DNA of 64,000 nucleotides. Origin: an uncultured Pelagibacteraceae bacterium. Its GTDB lineage: Bacteria > Pseudomonadota > Alphaproteobacteria > Pelagibacterales > Pelagibacteraceae. Position 1 is the stretch's first letter. Each line of letters starts with the position of its first letter. This document shows, one piece after another, positions 1,017 through 15,851 of this stretch. The stretch lies in the NCBI GenBank assembly GCA_902601315.1, contig CACKMS010000003.1:1-64000 (forward strand). Direction: 5' to 3'. The position numbers were made by a program, and so were the translations under genes. Below the pieces are notes generated by a model that saw nothing but the letters and a program-made list of their open reading frames with translations, was not told the DNA's origin and made no database searches.

Positions 1017-1976
1017 ATGAACAACTTAGAATTAATAAGTTTATACAAATCTTTATATTTAATAAGGCATGTCGAGGAAATGATATCTAAAAATTATTCT
1101 AAGGGTCAAATGCGATGTCCTGTCCATCTTTCAATTGGTCAAGAGGCATGTGCCACTGGATTAATTTCTAATTTAAAATTAACAGATAAAGTATTTTCAA
1201 ATCATAGATGCCACGCTCATTATCTGGCTAAAGGTGGAAGTCTAAAAAAAATGTTATGTGAAATCTATGGAAAAAAAAATGGTTGTGTAGGTGGAGTAGG
1301 TGGATCTATGCATTTACAGGATTTAGATAAAGGTTTAGTTGCAAGTATACCAATTGTTTCCAGCTCTATAGGAATGGCAACAGGAAATGCGCTTTATCAA
1401 AAAAGAAGAAAATCTAATGAAGTAACTGTGATTTATCTTGGAGATGCAGCACTAGAAGAAGGAATATTTTTTGAGTGTGCTAATTTTGCTGCACTTCATT
1501 CTCTACCAATTATATTTGCTTGTGAAAATAATATGTTCTCAGTTTATACCAATCTTAAAGATAGACAATTAGATAGCAATTTTAAAAAGTATGCTGATGC
1601 TTATAATATTTCTTATAAAAGATTAGATGGAAGCAAAATTGATGAAGTATACAAAAAAACAAAAAGTATAATTAATTTTGTAAGAAAGAATAAGGTACCT
1701 TACTTTATTCAAATGGATACCTATAGATTTAAAGAACATTGTGGTCCAGCAGTAGATGATCATTTGGAATATAGAGACCAAAAAGAAGTAAATTATTGGA
1801 AAAAAAAATGTCCTATAGAATATGCAAAAAAATTAATGAAAAGAAAAAAAATTAATGAAAAGAAAGTTGAAACAATTCAAAAAAATATTGAAAAATTTGT
1901 AATTAAAGAATTCAAATTTGCTGAAAAAGACAAATTACCAAGTTACAAAGACGCAGAGAGGTTTGTATATGTCTAA
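1017..1976 (+). CDS. Thiamine-diphosphate dehydrogenase E1-like protein, alpha subunit
   Basis: 319 residues. The TPP/Mg signature is clear: GDAALEEG at 142-149 followed by ENN at 170-172. An upstream GGVGGSMH segment (92-99) is also typical of pyruvate/acetoin dehydrogenase E1 alpha. The family normally decarboxylates a 2-oxoacid and passes the acyl group to E2, but no E2 or E3 gene lies in the island. The beta gene overlaps this stop by 8 bp, so the two subunits are translationally coupled. In a sugar island such a pair more probably transfers a two-carbon unit to a sugar intermediate (inference). A 19-bp direct repeat falls in its 3' end. Confidence 0.8.
   Translation: MNNLELISLYKSLYLIRHVEEMISKNYSKGQMRCPVHLSIGQEACATGLISNLKLTDKVFSNHRCHAHYLAKGGSLKKMLCEIYGKKNGCVGGVGGSMHLQDLDKGLVASIPIVSSSIGMATGNALYQKRRKSNEVTVIYLGDAALEEGIFFECANFAALHSLPIIFACENNMFSVYTNLKDRQLDSNFKKYADAYNISYKRLDGSKIDEVYKKTKSIINFVRKNKVPYFIQMDTYRFKEHCGPAVDDHLEYRDQKEVNYWKKKCPIEYAKKLMKRKKINEKKVETIQKNIEKFVIKEFKFAEKDKLPSYKDAERFVYV
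1832..1865 (+). repeat. Short direct repeat, period about 19 bp
   Basis: The 15-mer ATTAATGAAAAGAAA occurs at 1832-1846 and 1851-1865 with four A between copies, inside the lysine-rich C-terminal part of the E1 alpha gene. The period is not a multiple of three, so the copies are read in different frames. This looks like a local slippage duplication with no sign of function. Confidence 0.5.
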
Positions 1977-3045
1977 AACAGAAATATTATTTACAGATGC
2001 AATAAAAGATGCGGTGTATCAATCGATTAAAAAGGATAAAAAATTTTTTCTTATGGGCGAAGGAGTTTCTGATCCATCGTCTATGTGGGGAACAATTAAA
2101 GGTGTTTCAAAAAAATTTGGAAAATCAAAAACTGTGGAAATGCCTGTCGCAGAAAATGGTTTAATAGGTGTGGCAATCGGCTCTGCTTTAAATGGATCTA
2201 AAGTATTGATAAATCTTCAAAGGGTAGAATTTGCCTTATATGCTTTTGAGCAAATAATTAATAACGCAGCTAAAGCATCATATATTTCTAGAGGAAAACA
2301 TAATGTTCCAATTGTAATAAGATTGGTGATAGGTAGAGGTTGGGGTCAAGGGCCGGAACATGGACAAAGTCTAGAAAATATTTTTAGTGCCATTCCAGGA
2401 TTAAAGGTTGTAATACCTGCATTTCCTGAGGATGCTAAAGAAATGTTAATTTCATCTATATTTGATCCAAATCCAGTTATATTTTTGGAACATAGATGGC
2501 TTCATTATTCAAAGGGCAAAGTTGAAAATAAGTTTAAAATTAAAAAATTATCTTCATTCAAAAAAATTACAAATGGATCAGATTTAACTTTAGTCGCAAA
2601 TTCAATCAATCTTTTAGAAGCTTTCAGAATAGCAAAATTATTGAGGAAATATAGAATAAGACTAGACTTGCTAAATTTTTGTATGCCCAACCCATTTGAT
2701 AATAATTTATTGCTAAAGTCTGTAAGAAAGACGAGAAGAATAGTAAGTATTGATTTAAGCCATAAAACACTTGGATTATCTTCAGAAATAATATCGACAA
2801 TCAGTGATAATAAAATTAAATTAAAAACATTTCCCATAAGATTAGGTCTTCCCTTTCATCCAGTACCAAGCTCAAGAGGGTTGGTAAAAAATTTTTACCC
2901 TTCTGGAAAAAATATTCTAATCGCAATAAGAGATGCTCTTAATATAAGTGACAAATTGTTTAGAAAAATACTAAATGAGTATAATAAAAGCACAAAAAAA
3001 ATTCCTATAGATGTACCAGATCCATATTTTAAAGGACCTTTTTGA
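1969..3045 (+). CDS. Thiamine-diphosphate dehydrogenase E1-like protein, beta subunit
   Basis: I place the start at ATG 1969 (MSKTEILF), because an AGAGAGG ribosome-binding site lies 7 bp upstream and the family N-terminus begins here; the frame is open back to 1918. The 358-residue product has the beta-subunit TPP-binding pyrimidine domain: MPVAENGLIG carries the cofactor-activating glutamate, and GPEHGQSLE is equivalent to the conserved active-site His loop. The C-terminal transketolase-like domain is present. It pairs with the alpha subunit encoded immediately upstream to make an alpha2beta2 enzyme. The 2-oxoacid donor is unknown. Confidence 0.8.
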   Translation: MSKTEILFTDAIKDAVYQSIKKDKKFFLMGEGVSDPSSMWGTIKGVSKKFGKSKTVEMPVAENGLIGVAIGSALNGSKVLINLQRVEFALYAFEQIINNAAKASYISRGKHNVPIVIRLVIGRGWGQGPEHGQSLENIFSAIPGLKVVIPAFPEDAKEMLISSIFDPNPVIFLEHRWLHYSKGKVENKFKIKKLSSFKKITNGSDLTLVANSINLLEAFRIAKLLRKYRIRLDLLNFCMPNPFDNNLLLKSVRKTRRIVSIDLSHKTLGLSSEIISTISDNKIKLKTFPIRLGLPFHPVPSSRGLVKNFYPSGKNILIAIRDALNISDKLFRKILNEYNKSTKKIPIDVPDPYFKGPF

Positions 3046-3882: not shown

Positions 3883-4986
3883 ATGAATAATATAAATTTA
3901 ATAGATTTGAAAGATAGATATAAAGAAGAAAAAGATGAATTGCTATCAATTTTCACAAAAGTAATTGAATCAGGCAACCTTATATTATCTGATGAAAATT
4001 CAAATCTAGAGATGGAAATTTGTAGATTTATTAATTCTAAATTCTGCCTTACTTTAAATTCTGGAACAGACGCTCTAATGATGGCTCTTTGGTCTTTAGG
4101 AATTAAAAAAGGGGATGAGGTAATTACAAGCAGTGTATCTTTCATAGCAACTGCGGCTGCAATTGATCATATAGGAGCAAAGCCAGTATTTGTGGATGTA
4201 AAAAATGATCTAAATATTGATGAAAATCTAATAGAGGAAAAAATTACAGATAAAACAAAATGCATTATACCAGTCCATTGGACAGGAAGAATGTGTAATA
4301 TGAAGTCTATTTATGAAATTGGAAAAAAGCATAATTTATCAATTATAGAAGACGCTGCTCAAGCAATAGGGAGTAGTTTAAATGACGTAAGACCTGGAAA
4401 ATATTCAGATGTTGCAACTTTTTCAACACATCCTCTTAAAATTTTAAATGCTTTAGGTGATGGTGGTTTTTTAACAACTAACAATGAGAGGGTCTACGAA
4501 ATGATCAAAAAATATAGAAACCACGGTATGGTGGCTAGAGATGATTATGAGTTTTTTGGAGTAAATTCAAGATTAGACTCTTTGAATGCCGCAGTTTTAC
4601 GATTTAGGCTTAAAAAGGTTTATGATGTAATTTCTAGAAGAGATAAAAATATAAATTTTTATAGAGATCATATTAAAACTGAAAAATTTAAAATTATAAA
4701 ATGTAGAGAAAATGAAAGAAATTCATTTACAATGTTTGTTTCACTAGCTGAAGATAGAGATAATCTTCATAAATATCTCAATGAAAATAATATACAAAGT
4801 TTAATTTATTACGGAAAGCCGTTGCATTTACAAAATTCTTCAAAAAAACTTGGATATAAAGTGGGAGATTTCCCAAACGCTGAAAGATTATGTGATAGTG
4901 TTATATCCATACCGTTTCATCAACATTTATCTAAAGATAAACTTGAATACATATCTGACAAAATCAACTCGTTTTATAAAAATTAA
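3883..4986 (+). CDS. DegT/DnrJ/EryC1 sugar aminotransferase
   Basis: The start is ATG 3883 (MNNINLIDL), 10 bp after the upstream stop. The 367-residue product is a PLP-dependent transaminase of the 3-keto/4-keto nucleotide-sugar group: NSGTDALM (59-66) binds phosphate, EDAAQAIG supplies D157, and STHPLKILNALGDGG carries the Schiff-base lysine K186. It should aminate a keto-sugar with glutamate as donor. It closes the E1 alpha/beta-methyltransferase operon and resembles the aminotransferase at 9336-10445 in its active-site segment, so the two may be paralogues. Its stop shares the bases TTAA with the convergent gene at 4983. Confidence 0.85.
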   Translation: MNNINLIDLKDRYKEEKDELLSIFTKVIESGNLILSDENSNLEMEICRFINSKFCLTLNSGTDALMMALWSLGIKKGDEVITSSVSFIATAAAIDHIGAKPVFVDVKNDLNIDENLIEEKITDKTKCIIPVHWTGRMCNMKSIYEIGKKHNLSIIEDAAQAIGSSLNDVRPGKYSDVATFSTHPLKILNALGDGGFLTTNNERVYEMIKKYRNHGMVARDDYEFFGVNSRLDSLNAAVLRFRLKKVYDVISRRDKNINFYRDHIKTEKFKIIKCRENERNSFTMFVSLAEDRDNLHKYLNENNIQSLIYYGKPLHLQNSSKKLGYKVGDFPNAERLCDSVISIPFHQHLSKDKLEYISDKINSFYKN

Positions 4987-5954
4987 AAGAACTTTAAGAA
5001 ATTAAGTGCTTTGATTTTAATTAAAAAAATTTCGATATTTCGAGAGTTTTCTAATTTTTTGATGTTTTGCTCATTTTCTACAATAAGATAGCTAAATTTT
5101 TTTATGAGAAATCTTTGATATTTTGTTGTACATGTTTTAATCCATTTTAAGGTATCGAAATAATTTTTGGTATTTAAATAAGACTCCAAATTTTTTACAG
5201 ATTTTTTTTTTTCAAAAGAGCACCAACATCCTTTAGTGCTGTTGTCATAAACATATATTTTTTTTGTTAAAAAATTATTTGTAAGATAATCATCTATTCC
5301 TAAATCTGAATATAACTTATTATTTAAAAGTTTTTTTTTAAACATTAAAGGAGTCAAATGATGTGATTTAATTTTTATACCATATTTATTTTTATCTATA
5401 ATCCATGCTGGGGCATTATTAAAATATTTATTATTAATTGTCATCAAATCCATTTTTGGATGGAGGTTATTAATAATAATTTTCGATAAAACTTCTGATT
5501 TTAGAAAAATTTTTTTTTTTTTAAATAAATAATCGAGTTCCTTTTTTTTTTCAATTATTCTTGGACCCGGACAAAATATAATTTTAAAATTGGTTTTTTT
5601 AATCAAATCTATAAATAAATCACTAGAAAAAACTGTATCAGGATAACCAAGAAATATGAAATCTTCGTTATAAAATTTGATTTTTGACTTATTATTGATT
5701 ATTAAATTTAATATATCTTTATGAGCAATATATTTATTTCCTCTAAAGTAAGTATCTGGTAATGATATATTTTCTATACATCCATGGTAATGCTTAACTT
5801 TTTCTTTAATAAAATTTTCCTCACTTAATTTGTTAATTAAATAAAACTTAATTCTAGTTTTAATTTTATTAAAATAAATACTGTTTGCTTCATGAAATTT
5901 AAAATAATTATCTAGGTATTTCTTTCCCCAAGCTATAGTAACGGATTTTATCAT
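4983..5954 (-). CDS. Hypothetical protein, possible glycosyltransferase
   Basis: I do not recognise this 323-residue protein. It has no signal peptide or membrane span and is rich in Lys, Asn and Ile. It begins MIKSVTIAWGKKYLDNYFKF, and a segment FIFLGYPDTVFSSDLF (about residue 100) could be the nucleotide-binding edge of a GT-A type fold. Conserved-looking pieces include FCPGPRIIEK and the Cys/Trp-containing KGCWCSFEKK. The location, before the ABC exporter genes in a glycan island, makes a glycosyltransferase the first guess, but no diagnostic DxD context was found. Confidence 0.45.
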   Translation of the reverse strand: MIKSVTIAWGKKYLDNYFKFHEANSIYFNKIKTRIKFYLINKLSEENFIKEKVKHYHGCIENISLPDTYFRGNKYIAHKDILNLIINNKSKIKFYNEDFIFLGYPDTVFSSDLFIDLIKKTNFKIIFCPGPRIIEKKKELDYLFKKKKIFLKSEVLSKIIINNLHPKMDLMTINNKYFNNAPAWIIDKNKYGIKIKSHHLTPLMFKKKLLNNKLYSDLGIDDYLTNNFLTKKIYVYDNSTKGCWCSFEKKKSVKNLESYLNTKNYFDTLKWIKTCTTKYQRFLIKKFSYLIVENEQNIKKLENSRNIEIFLIKIKALNFLKFF

Positions 5955-9335: not shown

Positions 9336-10445
9336 ATGCTTGTAAATTACAATTACCTCCATCAAGAATTTTCTAACCCAGGTGAAATTTTTAAAGAATG
9401 GAGAAAGCTAATTAAATCAACAGATTTTACTCTAGGCAAATATGTTGAAAAATTCGAGGAAAAATTTTCTAGATATATTGGATCAAAATATTGCATATCA
9501 ACAAATAATGGTACAGATGCTTTAATTCTTTGTTTAAAAGCACTTAACATAGGTCCAGGAGATGAAGTAATAACTGTTGTAAATACCTTTTATGCAACAG
9601 TTGGAGCTATCGAAGCGGTTGGAGCAACAACAGTATTCTGTGATTGTGATGATAGATACCAAATAGATATCAATGATATTGAAAAAAAAATTACAAAAAA
9701 AACAAAAGCGATTTTACCAGTTCATTGGGGCGGAGCATCTCCAAATATGTTTGAAATAATGAAGATAGCAAAAAAATATAATTTAAAAGTAATAGAAGAT
9801 GCATGCATGGGTATTGGAGCAAAGATAAATGGAAAATCTCCGGGAACATTTGGAAACATATCAGCATTCAGTCTTCACCCACTAAAATCTCTTAATGCCA
9901 TGGGAGATGGAGGTGCGGTTGTAACAGATGATAAGAAACTTTATTCATGGCTTTTAAAATATAGAAATCATGGGATGATAAATAGAGATACAATTTCTAT
10001 TTGGGGTGAGAACAAAAGAATGCAGCCTTTACAATGTATTGTTGCATTATGGGGCTTAAAAAAACTTAATAGAGTAATTAAATTAAGAAACGCAAATGCA
10101 AAATATTATGACCAAAAATTAAGTGAATTAACTGATTTTATAAAAATCCCAAAAAGAATAAATAATTTTAGAGAGACTTTTGCACTTTATATGATTCTTT
10201 GTAAAAGAAGAGATCAGCTGAAAAAATTTTTAGAAAAAAATAATATTGAGGTCAAAATTCATTATCCAAAAGCCCTTAACAATCAACCAGCATTTAGGAA
10301 AAAAAATTATAAAAGAAATAGATTTAATTTTAAAATTTCTGATAAACAATCTAAAATGTTACTAACATTACCTGTTCACCAGTTTATATCTAGAAAACAA
10401 CAGGATTTTTTAATTAAAAAAATAAAACAATTTTATGAACATTAA
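9336..10445 (+). CDS. DegT/DnrJ/EryC1 sugar aminotransferase (second copy)
   Basis: I take ATG 9336 (MLVNYNYLH) as start; a TTG at 9318 in frame is also possible. 369 residues. PLP-site features are NNGTDALIL (58-66), EDACMGIG with D155, and SLHPLKSLNAMGDGG with the Schiff-base lysine K184. This is a keto-sugar transaminase. The active-site segment is close to that of the copy at 3883, suggesting paralogy within the island. The next gene starts inside its 3' end (11-bp overlap), linking amination to the CDP-sugar pathway by operon structure, although CDP-sugars are not the usual substrates of this family. Confidence 0.85.
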   Translation: MLVNYNYLHQEFSNPGEIFKEWRKLIKSTDFTLGKYVEKFEEKFSRYIGSKYCISTNNGTDALILCLKALNIGPGDEVITVVNTFYATVGAIEAVGATTVFCDCDDRYQIDINDIEKKITKKTKAILPVHWGGASPNMFEIMKIAKKYNLKVIEDACMGIGAKINGKSPGTFGNISAFSLHPLKSLNAMGDGGAVVTDDKKLYSWLLKYRNHGMINRDTISIWGENKRMQPLQCIVALWGLKKLNRVIKLRNANAKYYDQKLSELTDFIKIPKRINNFRETFALYMILCKRRDQLKKFLEKNNIEVKIHYPKALNNQPAFRKKNYKRNRFNFKISDKQSKMLLTLPVHQFISRKQQDFLIKKIKQFYEH

Positions 10446-11217
10446 AAAAGCTGTTATTTTAGCTGGTGGTTTGGGCTCAAGGTTGTCAGAGGAAACAGTG
10501 TCTAAACCAAAACCAATGGTAGAGCTAAATTTTAAACCTATCCTCTGGCATATCATGAAGATTTTTTCAAACCAGGGAATAAATAATTTTATTATATGTT
10601 CAGGATATAAATCATATGTAATCAAAGAATATTTTAATAATTATTTCTTGAATAATACCAATGTTAAAATTGATTTGAAAAAAAATAAAATTGAGTTTTT
10701 AAATAAACCTAAAGAAAATTGGGAAATTACGATAGTCAATACAGGTATAAATTCTAATACAGGAGGACGTTTAAAAAGAATAAAAAAATTTATATTAAAA
10801 AACGAAAATTTTTATATGACTTATGGTGACGGTTTAGCTAATGTTAATTTGAAGAAATTGTATTTAAATCATATTAAATCAAAAAAAATAGCTACAGTAA
10901 CCGCTGTAAAATCAAAAGCTAGATTTGGTAATATAGTTTTAAAAAAAAATTTAGCTTTAAAATTTGAAGAAAAAAACGATTCAAAAGATAATTGGATTAA
11001 TGGTGGTTTTTTTGTTTTAAATAATAAAATCTTTGATTATATAAAAAACGATCAAACAATATTTGAAAAAGATTCATTAAAAAAGATTACTTTAAAAAAA
11101 CAATTGAATGTTTTTAAGCATACTGGTTTTTGGCAACCTATGGATACACTAAAAGAAAAAAATTATTTAGAAAAATTGATCACAAAAAATAATATTCCTC
11201 CTTGGTTGAGAATTTAG
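10435..11217 (+). CDS. rfbF: Glucose-1-phosphate cytidylyltransferase
   Basis: 260 residues. The nucleotidyltransferase signature is at the N-terminus (AVILAGGLGSRLSEET, then KPKPMVEL), and the segment WHIMKIFSNQGINNFIICSGYK is characteristic of RfbF/AscA. A metal-binding TYGDGLANV follows. It makes CDP-glucose from CTP and glucose 1-phosphate, the first step of CDP-3,6-dideoxyhexose synthesis. It overlaps the preceding aminotransferase by 11 bp. The pathway partner CDP-glucose 4,6-dehydratase is at 12507, with the His-type PLP enzyme encoded between them on the other strand. Confidence 0.9.
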   Translation: MNIKKAVILAGGLGSRLSEETVSKPKPMVELNFKPILWHIMKIFSNQGINNFIICSGYKSYVIKEYFNNYFLNNTNVKIDLKKNKIEFLNKPKENWEITIVNTGINSNTGGRLKRIKKFILKNENFYMTYGDGLANVNLKKLYLNHIKSKKIATVTAVKSKARFGNIVLKKNLALKFEEKNDSKDNWINGGFFVLNNKIFDYIKNDQTIFEKDSLKKITLKKQLNVFKHTGFWQPMDTLKEKNYLEKLITKNNIPPWLRI

Positions 11218-11228
11218 TTCTAAAAAAT

Positions 11229-12434
11229 TTAATTATAAATATTTAAAAAATTTTCTATTGAATGGTGGATATGTTTCATCATTTTATTATTTAATCCCTG
11301 ATGACAAGCAATTAAAATACCGTTTTTCATTACATAATCTGCTTCTGGATATCCATAAATATTTGTTTTCATTTTTACATTGGCAAAACCAGGTTGTTTT
11401 ATAATATTCCCAGTGAAAACAACTCTTGTTTGAATATTTTTTTTTTCTAAAAATATTTGTAGCTCTGTTCTATTAAAAGGTGCAGTTTCTTTTACAGTAA
11501 AAGGGAAAGCTAACCAGCCAGTTTTTGAATTTTTGAGTTGTTCAGGCAGATCAAAAAAATCTGTATATTTTTTAAAGAAGTCTAAATGTTTGGAAAAATT
11601 TTTTTGTCTAATTTTCAAATTTGTTTTGAGTTTTTTTAGTTGTTCTAATCCAAAGGCAGCACCAATTTCCGATGGTTCTAAGTTATGACCAATTTTTTCA
11701 AAAACAAATTTTTTATCATATCTAATTCCTTTTAATTTAATATTAAACCGGTTTTCAATTTTTTCAGAATTTTCATCAAAGAGAGAAGAACTTCTACCCC
11801 AAGATCTTAAAAGTTTAGCTTCGATATATTGTTTCCTATTGTTAAAGCAGACTATTCCACCATTGCCAGCACAATTTATTATGTGAGACCCATAAAAACT
11901 GGTAATGCTAATATCAGAATATTTCCCAATTTTTTCTCCATTTAATGTTGCTCCTAATGTGTCTGATGAATCTTCAATAATTATAATATTTTTTTTTTTT
12001 AGAAATTTATAAATTTTTTTTAAATTTACGAGATTTCCAATTAGATGCGGTATTACAACTGCTTTTGTTTTTTTCGTTATAGCCTTACCAATTTTATCTA
12101 TATCTAAACAATAAGTATTTTTTTTTACATCTAAGAAAACCGGAATTAATTTATTTCTAATTATATAAGACACTGTTGTGGAAAAAGTTAACGCTGGTGT
12201 AATAATTTCAGATCCTTTTGGAAATTTTAGAACTTCCATTGCTAACATTAAAGCTGAAGATCCAGAATTCACCATTAACCCATATTTTTTGTTAAAAAGT
12301 AATGCAATCTTATTTTCAAAAGTCCTTACATTTTTACCCATTTGGGTACTTGTTTTTAAAGTTTTGACAACAGCTTTTATTTCATCCGAATTATGTACAG
12401 ACTTGCCATATGGTACTCTGATGTTTTTTGTCAT
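11229..12434 (-). CDS. PLP-dependent dehydratase-like member of the DegT family with His at the catalytic Lys position
   Basis: 401 residues of DegT/AHBA-synthase fold. EDSSDTLGA gives D155. The segment SFYGSHIINCAGNGG has H184 where transaminases have lysine. That substitution is the mark of the 3-dehydratases DdhC/RfbH/AscC (E1) and ColD. The iron-sulfur cysteines that E1 enzymes carry after the active site are not present in the corresponding stretch (about 210-240, RSSSLFDENSEK). It is therefore more like ColD in cofactor set, but sits between the CDP-glucose genes. Predicted role: C-3 deoxygenation of CDP-4-keto-6-deoxyglucose. It stands alone on the minus strand. Confidence 0.7.
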   Translation of the reverse strand: MTKNIRVPYGKSVHNSDEIKAVVKTLKTSTQMGKNVRTFENKIALLFNKKYGLMVNSGSSALMLAMEVLKFPKGSEIITPALTFSTTVSYIIRNKLIPVFLDVKKNTYCLDIDKIGKAITKKTKAVVIPHLIGNLVNLKKIYKFLKKKNIIIIEDSSDTLGATLNGEKIGKYSDISITSFYGSHIINCAGNGGIVCFNNRKQYIEAKLLRSWGRSSSLFDENSEKIENRFNIKLKGIRYDKKFVFEKIGHNLEPSEIGAAFGLEQLKKLKTNLKIRQKNFSKHLDFFKKYTDFFDLPEQLKNSKTGWLAFPFTVKETAPFNRTELQIFLEKKNIQTRVVFTGNIIKQPGFANVKMKTNIYGYPEADYVMKNGILIACHQGLNNKMMKHIHHSIENFLNIYN

Positions 12435-12506: not shown

Positions 12507-13571
12507 ATGAAAAAAATAAATTATGATTTTTGGAAAAATAAAAAGGTACTTGTTACTGGACATACAGGGTTCAAAGGTGGCTGGGCGTCATTAGTTTTAA
12601 CATATTTGGGATCGAAGGTTGTTGGTTATTCGTTAAAACCAAATAGAAATTCCCTTTACACTAAATTGAAATTAAAAAACAAGATCTATAAATCTTTTTA
12701 TTTTGATATAAACGATAAAAAAAATCTAAAGAAAATTTTATTAAATGAAAAACCTGACTTAATTCTTCACTTTGCCGCTCAGCCTCTAGTTTTAGAATCG
12801 TATAAAAATCCAATTAAAACAATAAAATCAAATATTTTTGGAACTTTTAATATATTACAAACTATAACTGAATTAAAAAAAAAACCTAGATCAGTAATTA
12901 TTGTCACTTCTGATAAATGCTACGAAAATAAAAACTTAAATAGAAAGTTTAATGAAAATGATAAGCTTGGAGGAAATGATCTATACAGTGCATCTAAAGC
13001 ATGTTGTGAGATTTTATCAAGTGCTTACAATAATTCTTTTTTTAAAAGTAGATTAATAGCAACAGTTAGAGCTGGAAATGTTATAGGTGGTGGAGATTTT
13101 GCAGAAAATAGAATTGTACCTGATTATTATAATTCTTATAAAAATAACAAATCATTAAAAATTAGAAATCCAAAACATATCAGACCTTGGCAATATGTTT
13201 TAGACGTTGTTAATGGATATTTAATTTTAGCAGAAAAGCTTTTTGATAATAAAAAATATGCGCAAAGCTGGAATTTTGGACCTGAAAATTCCAACTTGAT
13301 AGATGTACAGAAATTAATTAAAAAATTTAATATTATAAATCAAAAAAAAGTAAATATTGTTATACCCACAAAGAAATCCTATAAAAAAAAAGAGGAAAAA
13401 AAAATTTTACTCTCAAATACCAAGTCCAAAAAACTTTTAAAGTGGAGGATAAAAAAGAATTTAGATGAAATGATTAATGATACAAATCAGTGGTATATGA
13501 ATTATATAAATAATGAAAATATATATAATTTTTCAGTCAAACAAATTAAAAATTATTTCAATGGCAATTAA
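12507..13571 (+). CDS. rfbG: CDP-glucose 4,6-dehydratase
   Basis: 354-residue extended SDR. The NAD site is VTGHTGFKGGW (15-25), where the KGGW extension is typical of RfbG/AscB. HFAAQPLVLESY and the SDKCYEN segment follow, and the catalytic pair is in LYSASKACCE (YxxxK). It converts CDP-glucose to CDP-4-keto-6-deoxyglucose, the substrate for the dehydratase-like PLP enzyme encoded divergently. The next gene begins 11 bp inside its 3' end, so the pathway, a glycosyltransferase and two sugar-tailoring enzymes form one operon to 15851. Confidence 0.9.
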   Translation: MKKINYDFWKNKKVLVTGHTGFKGGWASLVLTYLGSKVVGYSLKPNRNSLYTKLKLKNKIYKSFYFDINDKKNLKKILLNEKPDLILHFAAQPLVLESYKNPIKTIKSNIFGTFNILQTITELKKKPRSVIIVTSDKCYENKNLNRKFNENDKLGGNDLYSASKACCEILSSAYNNSFFKSRLIATVRAGNVIGGGDFAENRIVPDYYNSYKNNKSLKIRNPKHIRPWQYVLDVVNGYLILAEKLFDNKKYAQSWNFGPENSNLIDVQKLIKKFNIINQKKVNIVIPTKKSYKKKEEKKILLSNTKSKKLLKWRIKKNLDEMINDTNQWYMNYINNENIYNFSVKQIKNYFNGN

Positions 13572-14475
13572 AGTATCGATTGTTGTCCCGGTTTTTAATG
13601 AAGAAAAAAATATTCATAATTTTATAAGTAAAATTTTAGAGGTAATTGAAAAGGAAAAAGCAAAATATGATTTTGAAATAATTTTTACTGATAATTGTTC
13701 CAAGGATAAAACTATTGAAGAAATAAAAAAATTTACAAATAAAAAATTTGTAAAATTAATCGCGCTGTCAAAAAATTTTGGAAGAAATAATTCTCAATTT
13801 GCTGGTTTGAAAAATGCCCAAGGAGATTTGATATTTATGATTGATGTTGACTGCCAAGATCCTCCAGAACTTTTATCAAAATTTTTAAGAGAGTATGAAA
13901 ATGGTTTCGATATAATTTATGGAAAAAGAAACAGGATAAAAGAATCTGTCATGGTGTATGTACTAGCTAAAATTTTTTATAGGTTTACAAATTTGTTAGC
14001 TGACAGAGATTTTACAAAAGATATGGGAGAATTTGTTTTATTTACAAAAGCAGTTAGAGACGCCGTTGTAAAAATTAAGTCTGACAAACCATTTATTAGG
14101 GCTGAAATATCTGCAGCAGGGTTTAAAAAAAAGGGGGTAGATTATTTAAGAGAGAAAAGAAATTTTGGTAAGTCAAAGTATAATTTTTTATCATTAATTA
14201 CTTACGGAATCTCTGGATTTTTATCTACCTCAACATTTTTTTTGAGATTTGGAAGTTTCTTAGGAGCTTTGTTATTGCTATTTAACATTATTTATATTTT
14301 TGATTTTATTGAAATTAATCAAAATAAATTATTGAGCATAAACTTTTCTTACATAATGTTTATATCTATATCGTTGGCAATTTATGTAGCGAGAACACAT
14401 AATAATACTCTGAATAGGCCAAATTATATAGTTAATATTAAAAGATCTATTAATGTGGATAAAATAATTGATTAA
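13561..14475 (+). CDS. GT2 glycosyltransferase with C-terminal membrane spans (DPM1/ArnC/GtrB-like)
   Basis: I choose ATG 13561 (MAIKVSIVVPVFNEE), which overlaps the rfbG stop by 11 bp; the frame is open further up but the family begins here. 304 residues. VVPVFNEEKNI opens the GT-A domain, DVDCQDPPELL carries the metal-binding acids, and a FGKSKYNFLSL segment precedes two hydrophobic spans at the C-terminus. Such proteins move a sugar from a nucleotide to polyprenyl phosphate on the cytoplasmic face. It may load the island's own deoxysugar for the GT-C enzyme at 15833. Confidence 0.85.
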   Translation: MAIKVSIVVPVFNEEKNIHNFISKILEVIEKEKAKYDFEIIFTDNCSKDKTIEEIKKFTNKKFVKLIALSKNFGRNNSQFAGLKNAQGDLIFMIDVDCQDPPELLSKFLREYENGFDIIYGKRNRIKESVMVYVLAKIFYRFTNLLADRDFTKDMGEFVLFTKAVRDAVVKIKSDKPFIRAEISAAGFKKKGVDYLREKRNFGKSKYNFLSLITYGISGFLSTSTFFLRFGSFLGALLLLFNIIYIFDFIEINQNKLLSINFSYIMFISISLAIYVARTHNNTLNRPNYIVNIKRSINVDKIID

Positions 14476-15340
14476 ACAAAAAATCATTTTAACAGGATGC
14501 ACTGGTTTTATTGGAGAAAATTTTATTAAAGAAAATTATAAAGATTATGATTTTTATTGCGTATTTAATAGGAGACGATTAAACAAAAAATATTTCAAAG
14601 GATCGATAAAATATGATGGAAACTTTGTTAAATTAAAAAATTTTTTTAAGAAAATTAATCCAGACATAGTTGTTCATCTAGCTACTAAATTTCTCAAAGA
14701 ACATAAAGAAAACGATATCTACAAATTGAATTACTCAAATATTTTCTTTGGTAATCAAATTTTAGAAGCAATGATAAAAACAAATTGTAGAAAATTAATT
14801 AATTTTTCCTCTGTATGGCAAAATTCAGAAAATAATAAACAATACAATCCAAACAATTTGTATTCAGCTACTAAAGAAGCCTTTGAAAAAATTTTGTTTT
14901 TTTATATCAGAAGACACAGAGTAAATTGTATTACACTAAAGATTTATGATACTTATGGATACGGAGATAAAAGAAAAAAAATAATTAATTTTATATTAGA
15001 GAAAATTAAAAAAAAAAATAGAAAACTAATCTTATATAATAAAAATCAAGAGTTAAATTTAACTCATTATTCGGATATTAATTCTGCAATCAATAGTACT
15101 ATTAAAATATTAAATAAAAAAAATAATAAAAGAATATTCAAAACTTTTGCAGTAAGATCAAAAAATACTCTTAAAATACATCAGATTGTAAAAACAATCG
15201 AACAAGTATTTAAGGTAAAGCTTATTATCAATTGGAAAAAGGGCAATAATGTCATCAAGAAAATAAATAAAACGTTTACAATACTACCAAAATGGAAAAC
15301 AAAAAAAAATTTTATTACTGGATTGAAAGAATATTTATAA
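14468..15340 (+). CDS. NAD(P)-dependent SDR, probable CDP-4-keto-deoxysugar reductase
   Basis: 290 residues from TTG 14468, overlapping the upstream stop by 8 bp. The dinucleotide-binding motif GCTGFIGENF is at residues 9-18 and the catalytic pair in NLYSATKEAFE (YxxxK). It belongs to the extended SDR group that includes abequose, paratose and ascarylose 4-reductases. Its place after rfbG and before an RmlC-like epimerase suggests that it reduces the C-4 keto group to finish a CDP-(di)deoxyhexose. Epimerase activity is the main alternative. Confidence 0.7.
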   Translation: MIKQKIILTGCTGFIGENFIKENYKDYDFYCVFNRRRLNKKYFKGSIKYDGNFVKLKNFFKKINPDIVVHLATKFLKEHKENDIYKLNYSNIFFGNQILEAMIKTNCRKLINFSSVWQNSENNKQYNPNNLYSATKEAFEKILFFYIRRHRVNCITLKIYDTYGYGDKRKKIINFILEKIKKKNRKLILYNKNQELNLTHYSDINSAINSTIKILNKKNNKRIFKTFAVRSKNTLKIHQIVKTIEQVFKVKLIINWKKGNNVIKKINKTFTILPKWKTKKNFITGLKEYL

Positions 15341-15341
15341 A

Positions 15342-15851
15342 ATGAATAAGCATGTAAAGTTGATTAATTTAAAAAAAATAAAAGATAAAAGGGGTTATTT
15401 TATAAAATTATTCAGCAATAAAATTATAAGAAAATATCAAGTAGAAGAATTATTCATTACCGAATCGAAAAAAAATGTTTTCAGAGGATTTCACTTTCAA
15501 GAAAAAAAATTTGACGTAGAAAAATTAATATATTGTTTAGAGGGCAAGGTATTAGATATACTCATAGATTTAGATACTAAAAAAAAAACCTTTGGTAAAG
15601 TTTCAAAAATCAATTTAAGTGATAAAAAAAATCAATTATTATTTGTTCCTAAAAAAACTGCACATGGTTTCATTTGTCTGTCTAGGAAGTGTAAACTAGT
15701 TTATTTTTACAATAAAAAATATAATAAAAAATTTGATAAAGGAATTTCATACGACTCTATAAAAGTTTTAAAAAATTATAAGAGACTTATTATATCTAAA
15801 AGAGATAAATCTTTCCCAACTTTGAATGATTATTACCTTAAATATAAATAA
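15342..15851 (+). CDS. RmlC-like deoxysugar 3,5- (or 5-) epimerase
   Basis: 169-residue cupin. The family landmarks are DKRGYF at the N-terminus, VFRGFHFQ with the active-site histidine, YCLEGKVLDILIDL, and FVPKKTAHGF. It is close in length to dTDP-4-dehydrorhamnose 3,5-epimerase. No dTDP-sugar genes (rmlA/B/D) are in the window, so the substrate is more probably a CDP-4-keto sugar, as for AscE in ascarylose synthesis. It lies 1 bp after the reductase gene and its 3' end overlaps the convergent GT-C gene by 19 bp. Confidence 0.8.
   Translation: MNKHVKLINLKKIKDKRGYFIKLFSNKIIRKYQVEELFITESKKNVFRGFHFQEKKFDVEKLIYCLEGKVLDILIDLDTKKKTFGKVSKINLSDKKNQLLFVPKKTAHGFICLSRKCKLVYFYNKKYNKKFDKGISYDSIKVLKNYKRLIISKRDKSFPTLNDYYLKYK

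Follow-up and report, generated by a model that had tools for sequence, protein, structure and literature searches.

Can a sugar 3-dehydratase act on a CDP-sugar without an iron–sulfur cluster? According to the accessible part of PMC8987622, three types of these enzymes have been characterized: those for CDP-sugars, which possess a cluster (E1); those for dTDP-sugars, which also possess one (SpnQ); and those for GDP-sugars, which do not (ColD). The question is raised by a gene (11229..12434; 401 amino acids) in a 64,000-nucleotide stretch of DNA from an uncultured Pelagibacteraceae bacterium, a stretch referred to here as ‘the window’. The original prediction was that this gene, beside others for CDP-glucose synthesis, encodes a PLP enzyme of a cluster-free kind. 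The open reading frame is real and intact, and it is where the prediction placed it, with the qualification that it is encoded on the minus strand, rfbF and rfbG pointing the other way. We consider it probable that the enzyme is a CDP-4-keto-6-deoxyglucose 3-dehydratase that would work by ColD-like PLP and glutamate chemistry, with neither an Fe–S cluster nor an E3 reductase.

The gene and its neighbors

On one side of the gene lies that for RfbF (10435..11217, plus strand; TIGR02623, 335 bits against a cut-off of 300), the glucose-1-phosphate cytidylyltransferase that makes CDP-glucose. On the other lies that for RfbG (12507..13571, plus strand; TIGR02622, 399.5 bits against 278), the CDP-glucose 4,6-dehydratase that would make the substrate. 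This is the setting of an RfbH (E1) gene. It is not that of a ColD gene, for which the adjoining 4,6-dehydratase would be Gmd; here, by TIGR02622, it is RfbG. The dTDP-glucose 4,6-dehydratase, RmlB, has no match at 1e-80 in the organism's own genome (G000; 1.2 Mb, 31 contigs, 85.84% complete), which is of SAR11 type, judged by its named Pelagibacteraceae relatives.

Further genes on the plus strand encode a family 2 glycosyltransferase (13513..14475; PF00535, 2.1e-28), an SDR epimerase/reductase that is a candidate C4-reductase of the deoxygenated sugar (14468..15340; PF01370, 2.4e-21), and an RmlC-like epimerase that is a candidate C5-epimerase (15342..15851; PF00908, 2e-38). The last matches RmlC-type structures (1.6e-22) and scores under the TIGR01221 cut-off. 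We considered ascarylose as the definite product of the locus, and set this aside because the SDR and RmlC-like neighbors are weakly typed. A split ThDP enzyme (E1-alpha/E1-beta pair; 1017..3045, plus strand; PF00676, 1.8e-60, and PF02779, 1.8e-26) is PDH-like, scores under the NCBIfam cut-offs, and lies within the polysaccharide cluster, of which it is an uncertain member. It may be a C2-branching enzyme: the alphaKADH2 pairs that it resembles add C2 branches to ketosugars, according to the accessible part of PMC12247030. Two open reading frames in the cluster (141–923 and 4983–5954, minus strand) have no Pfam match at 0.001.

The protein itself is a member of the DegT/DnrJ/EryC1/StrS superfamily (PF01041, 7.1e-78; 262.8 bits against a curated cut-off of 19.8). 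It falls short of the NCBIfam equivalog for RfbH, NF011936, scoring 315.3 bits against a cut-off of 423. Four further proteins of the same type, one of them viral, range from 278 to 332 bits, and none of the other listed families scores over its cut-off for any of the five proteins tested. By sequence, the nearest solved relatives are E1 (3bcx, 4.8e-61) and then ColD (3b8x, 4.3e-48); PDB 9wvy, a putative NDP-4-keto-6-deoxyglucose 3-dehydratase, is also among the matches. The AlphaFold2 model (pLDDT 88, pTM 0.86) finds E1 at top rank in Foldseek (5.1e-40), and when aligned to known structures with VIA-align it gives a higher Z for E1 (49.1) than for ColD (46.6). Lysine-type aminotransferases are close behind, at 46.0 and below, and fold by itself therefore leaves the function undecided.

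The active-site histidine and the cluster cysteines

The position of the Schiff-base lysine is occupied in the window protein by His184 (codon 11883..11885, minus strand), within the segment SFYGSHIINCAGNGG (residues 179–193). His184 aligns with H220 of E1 and with the catalytic histidine of ColD (H188, according to the PDB titles; the ColD chain in the alignment is the H188N crystal mutant, hence has Asn there). We refer to enzymes with His at the Lys position, and at most one of the four cluster cysteines, as ‘class A’. All 44 class A rows have the histidine. It was originally proposed for the window protein, and it recurs in 43 of 43 SAR11 rows, which include the fragments L044, L045, L069 and L083, of which L045 stops short of the loop discussed below. 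The lysine itself is present in all five Lys-type rows, and by this feature the window protein is not a DegT aminotransferase.

Aminotransferase activity deserves consideration all the same. The enzyme belongs to an aminotransferase superfamily, and SpnQ transaminates when its reductase is absent (PMC8987622, accessible part); using glutamate and PLP, with His184 as the base, the window enzyme might make CDP-4-amino-4,6-dideoxy-glucose. We think this unlikely. Every class A row examined has His for Lys, as do E1, ColD and SpnQ, and the same part of PMC8987622 has E1 and ColD giving no transamination under similar conditions. Moreover, some neighbors of class A genes are YerE-like ThDP enzymes, for which the known acceptor, in the parts of the literature available to us, is a 4-ketone.

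All four cluster cysteines of E1/RfbH are substituted in the window protein. We take the [2Fe-2S] ligands of E1 to be C193, C251, C253 and C261, with the motif C-X57-C-X1-C-X7-C, a spacing that fits the one re-measured on the 3bcx chain. The counterpart of C193 is S157 (codon 11964..11966, minus strand). Those of C251, C253 and C261 are S216, L218 and I226, in the loop R214–R229 (RSSSLFDENSEKIENR; 11748..11795, minus strand). The original observation that the cysteine segment is replaced is correct for the three loop positions, and S157 adds a fourth that it omitted. SpnQ-type [2Fe-2S] ligands, judged at these four E1 positions with SpnQ known by description, are absent also. The class A loop has about the length of the E1 loop and a conserved sequence of its own; in the model, residues 214–218 and 220–222 have pLDDT below 50. 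S216 is invariant (44/44 class A rows), where the Cys4 enzymes, the canonical RfbH type, have C251 and the ColD clade has mostly Arg. Displacement of the cysteines to other places in the chain, named at the outset as grounds for abandoning the prediction, is unlikely: the 44 class A rows have no conserved set of four. The sole cysteine conserved in at least 90% of the rows is C377 (93%), and in 8 of the 44 there are two cysteines in total.

These counts bear on whether the window enzyme might operate as E1 does, taking electrons from an external reductase by way of a cluster on other ligands, or with no cluster at all. E1 is its closest solved relative, and its loop is about as long. Class A shares seven positions with E1 against ColD (F84, D158, W212, R214, R229, K242 and F340), and only four strongly conserved positions with ColD against E1 (P80, S183, F245 and G372). 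The want of a conserved cysteine quartet, and the members with two cysteines in all, argue against E1-like operation, which we return to when discussing E3.

Phylogeny

In a tree of 93 rows, from which the active-site and cluster columns were excluded, class A forms a clade (support 100/99) of 50 rows, five viral ones and one from Rhodococcus among them. The Cys4 enzymes form another (100/98; 27 rows), as do the ColD enzymes (100/98; 11 rows), and the window protein lies outside both. One further row, L148, labelled Cx, is a Lys enzyme. Class A is a conserved clade distinct from the Cys4 E1/RfbH enzymes and from ColD. Derivation of class A by loss from within RfbH was considered and rejected, the tree having no such nesting. 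Tests of the branching order reject neither class A with ColD (p-AU 0.40) nor Cys4 with ColD (p-AU 0.52), and so fit either a loss of the cluster in class A or its gain in the Cys4 enzymes. Within class A, the subclade ‘A2’ is well defined (100/99; 13 tree rows) and, in this sample, confined to SAR11. The other class A rows, of the window type and termed ‘A1’, hold together only weakly (87/45).

Distribution of class A

Class A occurs well beyond the window. Among 297 SAR11-family genomes, 95 match the query at 1e-40. The 57 matches that were extracted and aligned comprise 43 class A enzymes, 6 canonical Cys4 RfbH enzymes and 8 ColD-like enzymes, the last being all of the weaker matches sampled. 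A genome-wide scan (tblastn, E ≤1e-3) found at least 559 loose relatives, of which the best 80 were kept. These 80 favor the query's own subclade, and the other 479, which are unclassified, may hold other DegT enzymes. The best 80 of the at least 559 have identities of 55–73%; all have the histidine, none has any loop cysteine, and three retain a cysteine at the C193 position. Six are from SAR11 (one of them, L098, being from the same genome as G288, with an identical RfbG match) and 74 are from elsewhere: Bacteroidota, other Proteobacteria, Acidobacteriota, Planctomycetota, Verrucomicrobiota and Gemmatimonadota, among others. With the histidine retained in every SAR11 row (43) and every kept scan locus (80), chance is excluded.

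It might be supposed that the window enzyme is a decayed or non-catalytic copy of RfbH, since its cofactor site is lost. We regard this as extremely improbable. The reading frame is intact, 79 columns are invariant across 22 sequences with 49–71% identity to the query, S216 included, and class A is present in several phyla.

Several observations on distribution stand apart from the argument. The gammaproteobacterial class A enzymes of L107, L115 and L134, two of these being Legionellales, have a cysteine at the E1 C193 position and lack the other three. Among 80 viral loci kept (L174–L253), 74 are Cys4 RfbH-like, five are class A-like and one (L182) is ColD-like, so the 3-dehydratases of phages are not all of one type. 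The viral class A-like enzymes (L174–L177 and L179) are predicted to be cluster-free, have a shorter loop and retain one cysteine. A His-type relative with 44% identity occurs on a plasmid of Rhodococcus erythropolis (L259:8992–10215), where the surrounding annotation includes no genes of the rfbF or rfbG type.

Association with CDP-glucose genes

Among the best 80 scan loci, RfbF is encoded in the flank of 40, RfbG in that of 39, one or both in that of 43, and neither in that of 37. On three alphaproteobacterial plasmids, of Roseibium, Leisingera and Palleronia, the annotated genes run rfbF–rfbG–class A–methyltransferase–oxidoreductase–glycosyltransferase, the class A gene being recognized by its motif. 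Class A often occupies the slot of RfbH in CDP-glucose operons.

Where the genes are not adjacent, they are frequently found in the same genome. Of the 37 scan loci without rfbF or rfbG nearby, 34 are in genomes that encode an RfbG over the cut-off; with G000 and G288, which were searched also, the total is 36 of 39. RfbG is encoded by 27 of the 28 Bacteroidota genomes that carry class A without rfbF or rfbG nearby, compared with 18 of 147 random Bacteroidota (Fisher 1e-18, a value overstated since the carriers are phylogenetically clustered). The converse was examined in all 18 of the RfbG-positive random genomes and in 20 of the 129 RfbG-negative ones, the centre genome being excluded. The positive genomes have class A in one, Cys4 in eight (L322 being Cys4) and neither in nine; the 20 negative genomes have no match to the query at 1e-40. 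In Bacteroidota, class A tracks the CDP-glucose 4,6-dehydratase at the genome level. Within SAR11, 8 of 9 A1 genomes encode RfbG compared with 128 of 288 genomes without A1 (p 0.013). Since RfbG is widespread in SAR11 as it is, adjacency is the one informative feature in that group, and we set aside this modest association as support in itself. The conserved clade, the CDP-glucose operons and the co-occurrence with RfbG make a cluster-free CDP-sugar 3-dehydratase, as first proposed, the best-supported reading, the reaction being what these features point to.

Subclade A2 and dTDP-sugars

The CDP assignment fits the window enzyme and its nearest relatives rather than the whole family, because subclade A2 is linked to genes for dTDP-sugars. 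Among 34 A2 loci, RmlB is encoded in the flank of 13, RmlA in 13 and an RmlC-like protein in 17. RmlB (E ≤1e-80) is present in 28 of 34 A2 genomes compared with 145 of 263 others (p 0.0027), and that of L064 passes TIGR01181. The His-type enzyme lies beside RmlA, RmlB and RmlC-like genes in L061, L064, L068, L070–L072 and other A2 loci. Many A2 loci have neither the dTDP nor the CDP gene set in the flank, and one, L043, has RfbF and RfbG in place of the dTDP genes. Gene content suggests that A2 is a cluster-free dTDP-sugar 3-dehydratase in SAR11, and nucleotide preference may vary within class A. The CDP substrate originally proposed is thus retained for the window enzyme and its nearest relatives, flanked by rfbF and rfbG, and not for the family as a whole, given the dTDP genes at 13 of 34 A2 loci.

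The E3 reductase

The original prediction also drew on the lack of an encoded E3. Using the Salmonella reference as the query, a search that does recover E3 in other genomes, we found no match at E ≤1e-5 in the organism's own genome (86% complete), nor at this threshold in 49 SAR11 genomes (class A in 43, Cys4 in six). As an argument this result is weak, and we reject it as proof of cluster-free chemistry, since none of the six SAR11 Cys4 genomes matches E3 either. Cys4 enzymes often occur without E3, and SpnQ too dispenses with it by drawing on ferredoxin or flavodoxin (PMC8987622, accessible part), so the E3 argument alone carries little weight.

Outside SAR11, the comparison covered 32 of the 34 RfbH genomes over the cut-off and those that hold 47 of the 80 scan loci, using the best match per genome. 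Strong matches (191–291 bits) occur in 7 of the 32 RfbH genomes and in none of the 47 class A genomes (p 0.0012), the line between these and weaker matches, at 136 bits or below, being drawn after the gap was visible. The other 25 of the 32 RfbH genomes have no match above 136 bits; three of these have weak ones, as do 16 of the 47 class A genomes (74–136 bits), and we read those in class A genomes as other flavin reductases. E3 is encoded in the flank of 5 of 20 Cys4 loci, of none of the 80 class A loci, and of none of the 43 class A loci with RfbF or RfbG. The direction of this distribution fits a cluster-free enzyme. For E1-like operation with an external reductase, the weaker flavin-reductase matches in 16 of 47 genomes might be cited as candidates. 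The 43 SAR11 class A genomes with no E3 match at 1e-5, and the 47 others with none above 136 bits, where true E3s score 191–291, speak against it, and we judge such operation very improbable.

Thiamine-enzyme partners

That class A and Cys4 RfbH make the same product is best supported by the genes downstream, since the ThDP partners of the two intermix. We compared 85 class A loci (5 of the 43 SAR11 loci and the best 80 scan loci) with 26 Cys4 loci (20 non-SAR11 and 6 SAR11, all read as Cys4). AHAS/YerE-type ThDP enzymes encoded on the same strand within 4 kb accompany 8 of the former and 11 of the latter. Following class A in L059 is a ThDP enzyme that shares 63% identity with one that follows a Cys4 RfbH, in L048. 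It is closer to this than to any other of 19 compared, and is at most 42% identical to the other class A-linked ThDP enzymes. Its second-best solved match (2.5e-93) is 8rph, which is JanthE, a YerE-like enzyme (PMC12188165, accessible part). YerE itself transfers activated acetaldehyde to CDP-3,6-dideoxy-4-keto-D-glucose, a saturated 4-ketone, according to the accessible part of PMC12247030. Split transketolase genes, too, adjoin both class A and Cys4 loci. Just 12 of the best 80 scan loci have ThDP genes in the flank, so no single partner is general.

Such neighbors invite another interpretation: that the enzyme removes the C3 hydroxyl, and hands the hexoseen or enone to a partner such as a ThDP carboligase, an SDR reductase or a methyltransferase. 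Some loci do lie near ThDP enzymes, split transketolases or a class I methyltransferase. Yet Cys4 RfbH has the same kind of ThDP partner, the characterized YerE accepts the saturated ketone (PMC12247030, as above), and the small number of scan loci with ThDP genes tells against it also. We consider this hand-over improbable.

Two arrangements may be recorded here. In L056 (7364–9047), and also in L060 and L069, a two-gene transketolase lies directly downstream of class A and is a possible C2-branching enzyme; the L056 products are of 265 and 297 amino acids. In L057 (10588–11274), a gene for an HpaI-type aldolase separates class A from the ThDP gene; its product may provide an alpha-keto acid donor, as in the making of erwiniose-type branches.

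A proposed mechanism

From the residues, clade, genomic context and predicted fold observed, we infer the substrate, chemistry and product of the window enzyme to be as follows. RfbF and RfbG would make CDP-4-keto-6-deoxy-D-glucose, and the class A enzyme would convert this to CDP-3,6-dideoxy-4-keto-D-glucose. By analogy with ColD, glutamate would first turn the bound PLP into PMP, with His184 as the base, and PMP would form a Schiff base with the C4 ketone. His184 would then remove the C4' proton, and the C3 hydroxyl would depart to leave a 3,4-hexoseen adduct. Hydrolysis of the adduct would regenerate PLP and release a 4-enamine sugar, which would tautomerize and lose ammonium. Glutamate would supply the two reducing equivalents, in place of NADH by way of E3. 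The product could pass to the RmlC-like epimerase and the SDR, giving an ascarylose-type sugar, to which the ThDP pair might add a branch at C2.

Comparison with known systems

E1, also termed DdhC, AscC and RfbH (3bcx, 3bb8), resembles class A in its PLP fold, the histidine at the Lys position, the rfbF–rfbG context and the similar loop length. The window enzyme differs from it in lacking the four [2Fe-2S] cysteines, in belonging to another clade, in scoring under the RfbH cut-off, and in having no N-terminal extension (401 amino acids compared with 437, the alignment starting at E1 residue 32). ColD, the GDP-4-keto-6-deoxymannose 3-dehydratase (2gms, 3b8x), is cluster-free like the window enzyme, with the same histidine and a length of ∼390–400 amino acids. 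Unlike class A, it acts on a GDP-sugar, lacks the loop and forms its own clade; the SAR11 ColD-like gene in L052 adjoins Gmd. In ColD the histidine, PLP and glutamate suffice for deoxygenation (PMC8987622, accessible part).

SpnQ, the dTDP-4-keto-2,6-dideoxyglucose 3-dehydrase, is likewise a His-type enzyme, and acts on a dTDP-sugar as proposed for A2. Its [2Fe-2S] cluster and its reliance on ferredoxin or flavodoxin reductases, described in the accessible part of PMC8987622, set it apart, and the likeness drawn here is by description. The C3-dehydratases of Campylobacter jejuni HS:5 and HS:11 perform PLP- and glutamate-dependent 3-deoxygenation with no added reductase, as proposed for class A, and are reported to take up deuterium at C3 non-stereospecifically in D2O; in contrast, their substrate is a GDP-heptose, and at 62–67% identity to two characterized GDP-sugar C3-dehydratases they belong to the ColD branch (all from the accessible part of PMC10440746). 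A literature search, with thin coverage of subscription journals, found no published cluster-free CDP-sugar 3-dehydratase. In the accessible main text of a paper on Pelagibacterales O-chains (PMC11898729), the terms CDP, RfbH, DegT, dehydratase and aminotransferase do not appear.

Implications

Should a clade from CDP-glucose operons prove cluster-free, nucleotide and electron source would no longer go together. More tentatively, class A as a whole could be a third family of self-sufficient 3-dehydratases, spread over several phyla and acting on CDP-4-keto-6-deoxyglucose (A1) and dTDP-4-keto-6-deoxyglucose (A2) with glutamate as the sole reductant. If so, CDP-sugar chemistry would not require the Fe–S and E3 machinery of E1, which would be a lineage-specific addition. 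In that case SAR11 would also have a route to dTDP-linked 3,6-dideoxy sugars that is without description in the literature searched. The generic label ‘aminotransferase’ in databases would need correction for class A relatives: among the PLSDB matches listed, those with 52–57% identity are named DegT/DnrJ/EryC1/StrS or class I/II aminotransferase, or have no gene annotated, and the Cys4-type relatives carry the name rfbH. Class A would offer a route to CDP-3,6-dideoxy sugars that is free of E3 and presumably tolerant of oxygen, and it would serve as a natural control for why E1 has a cluster.
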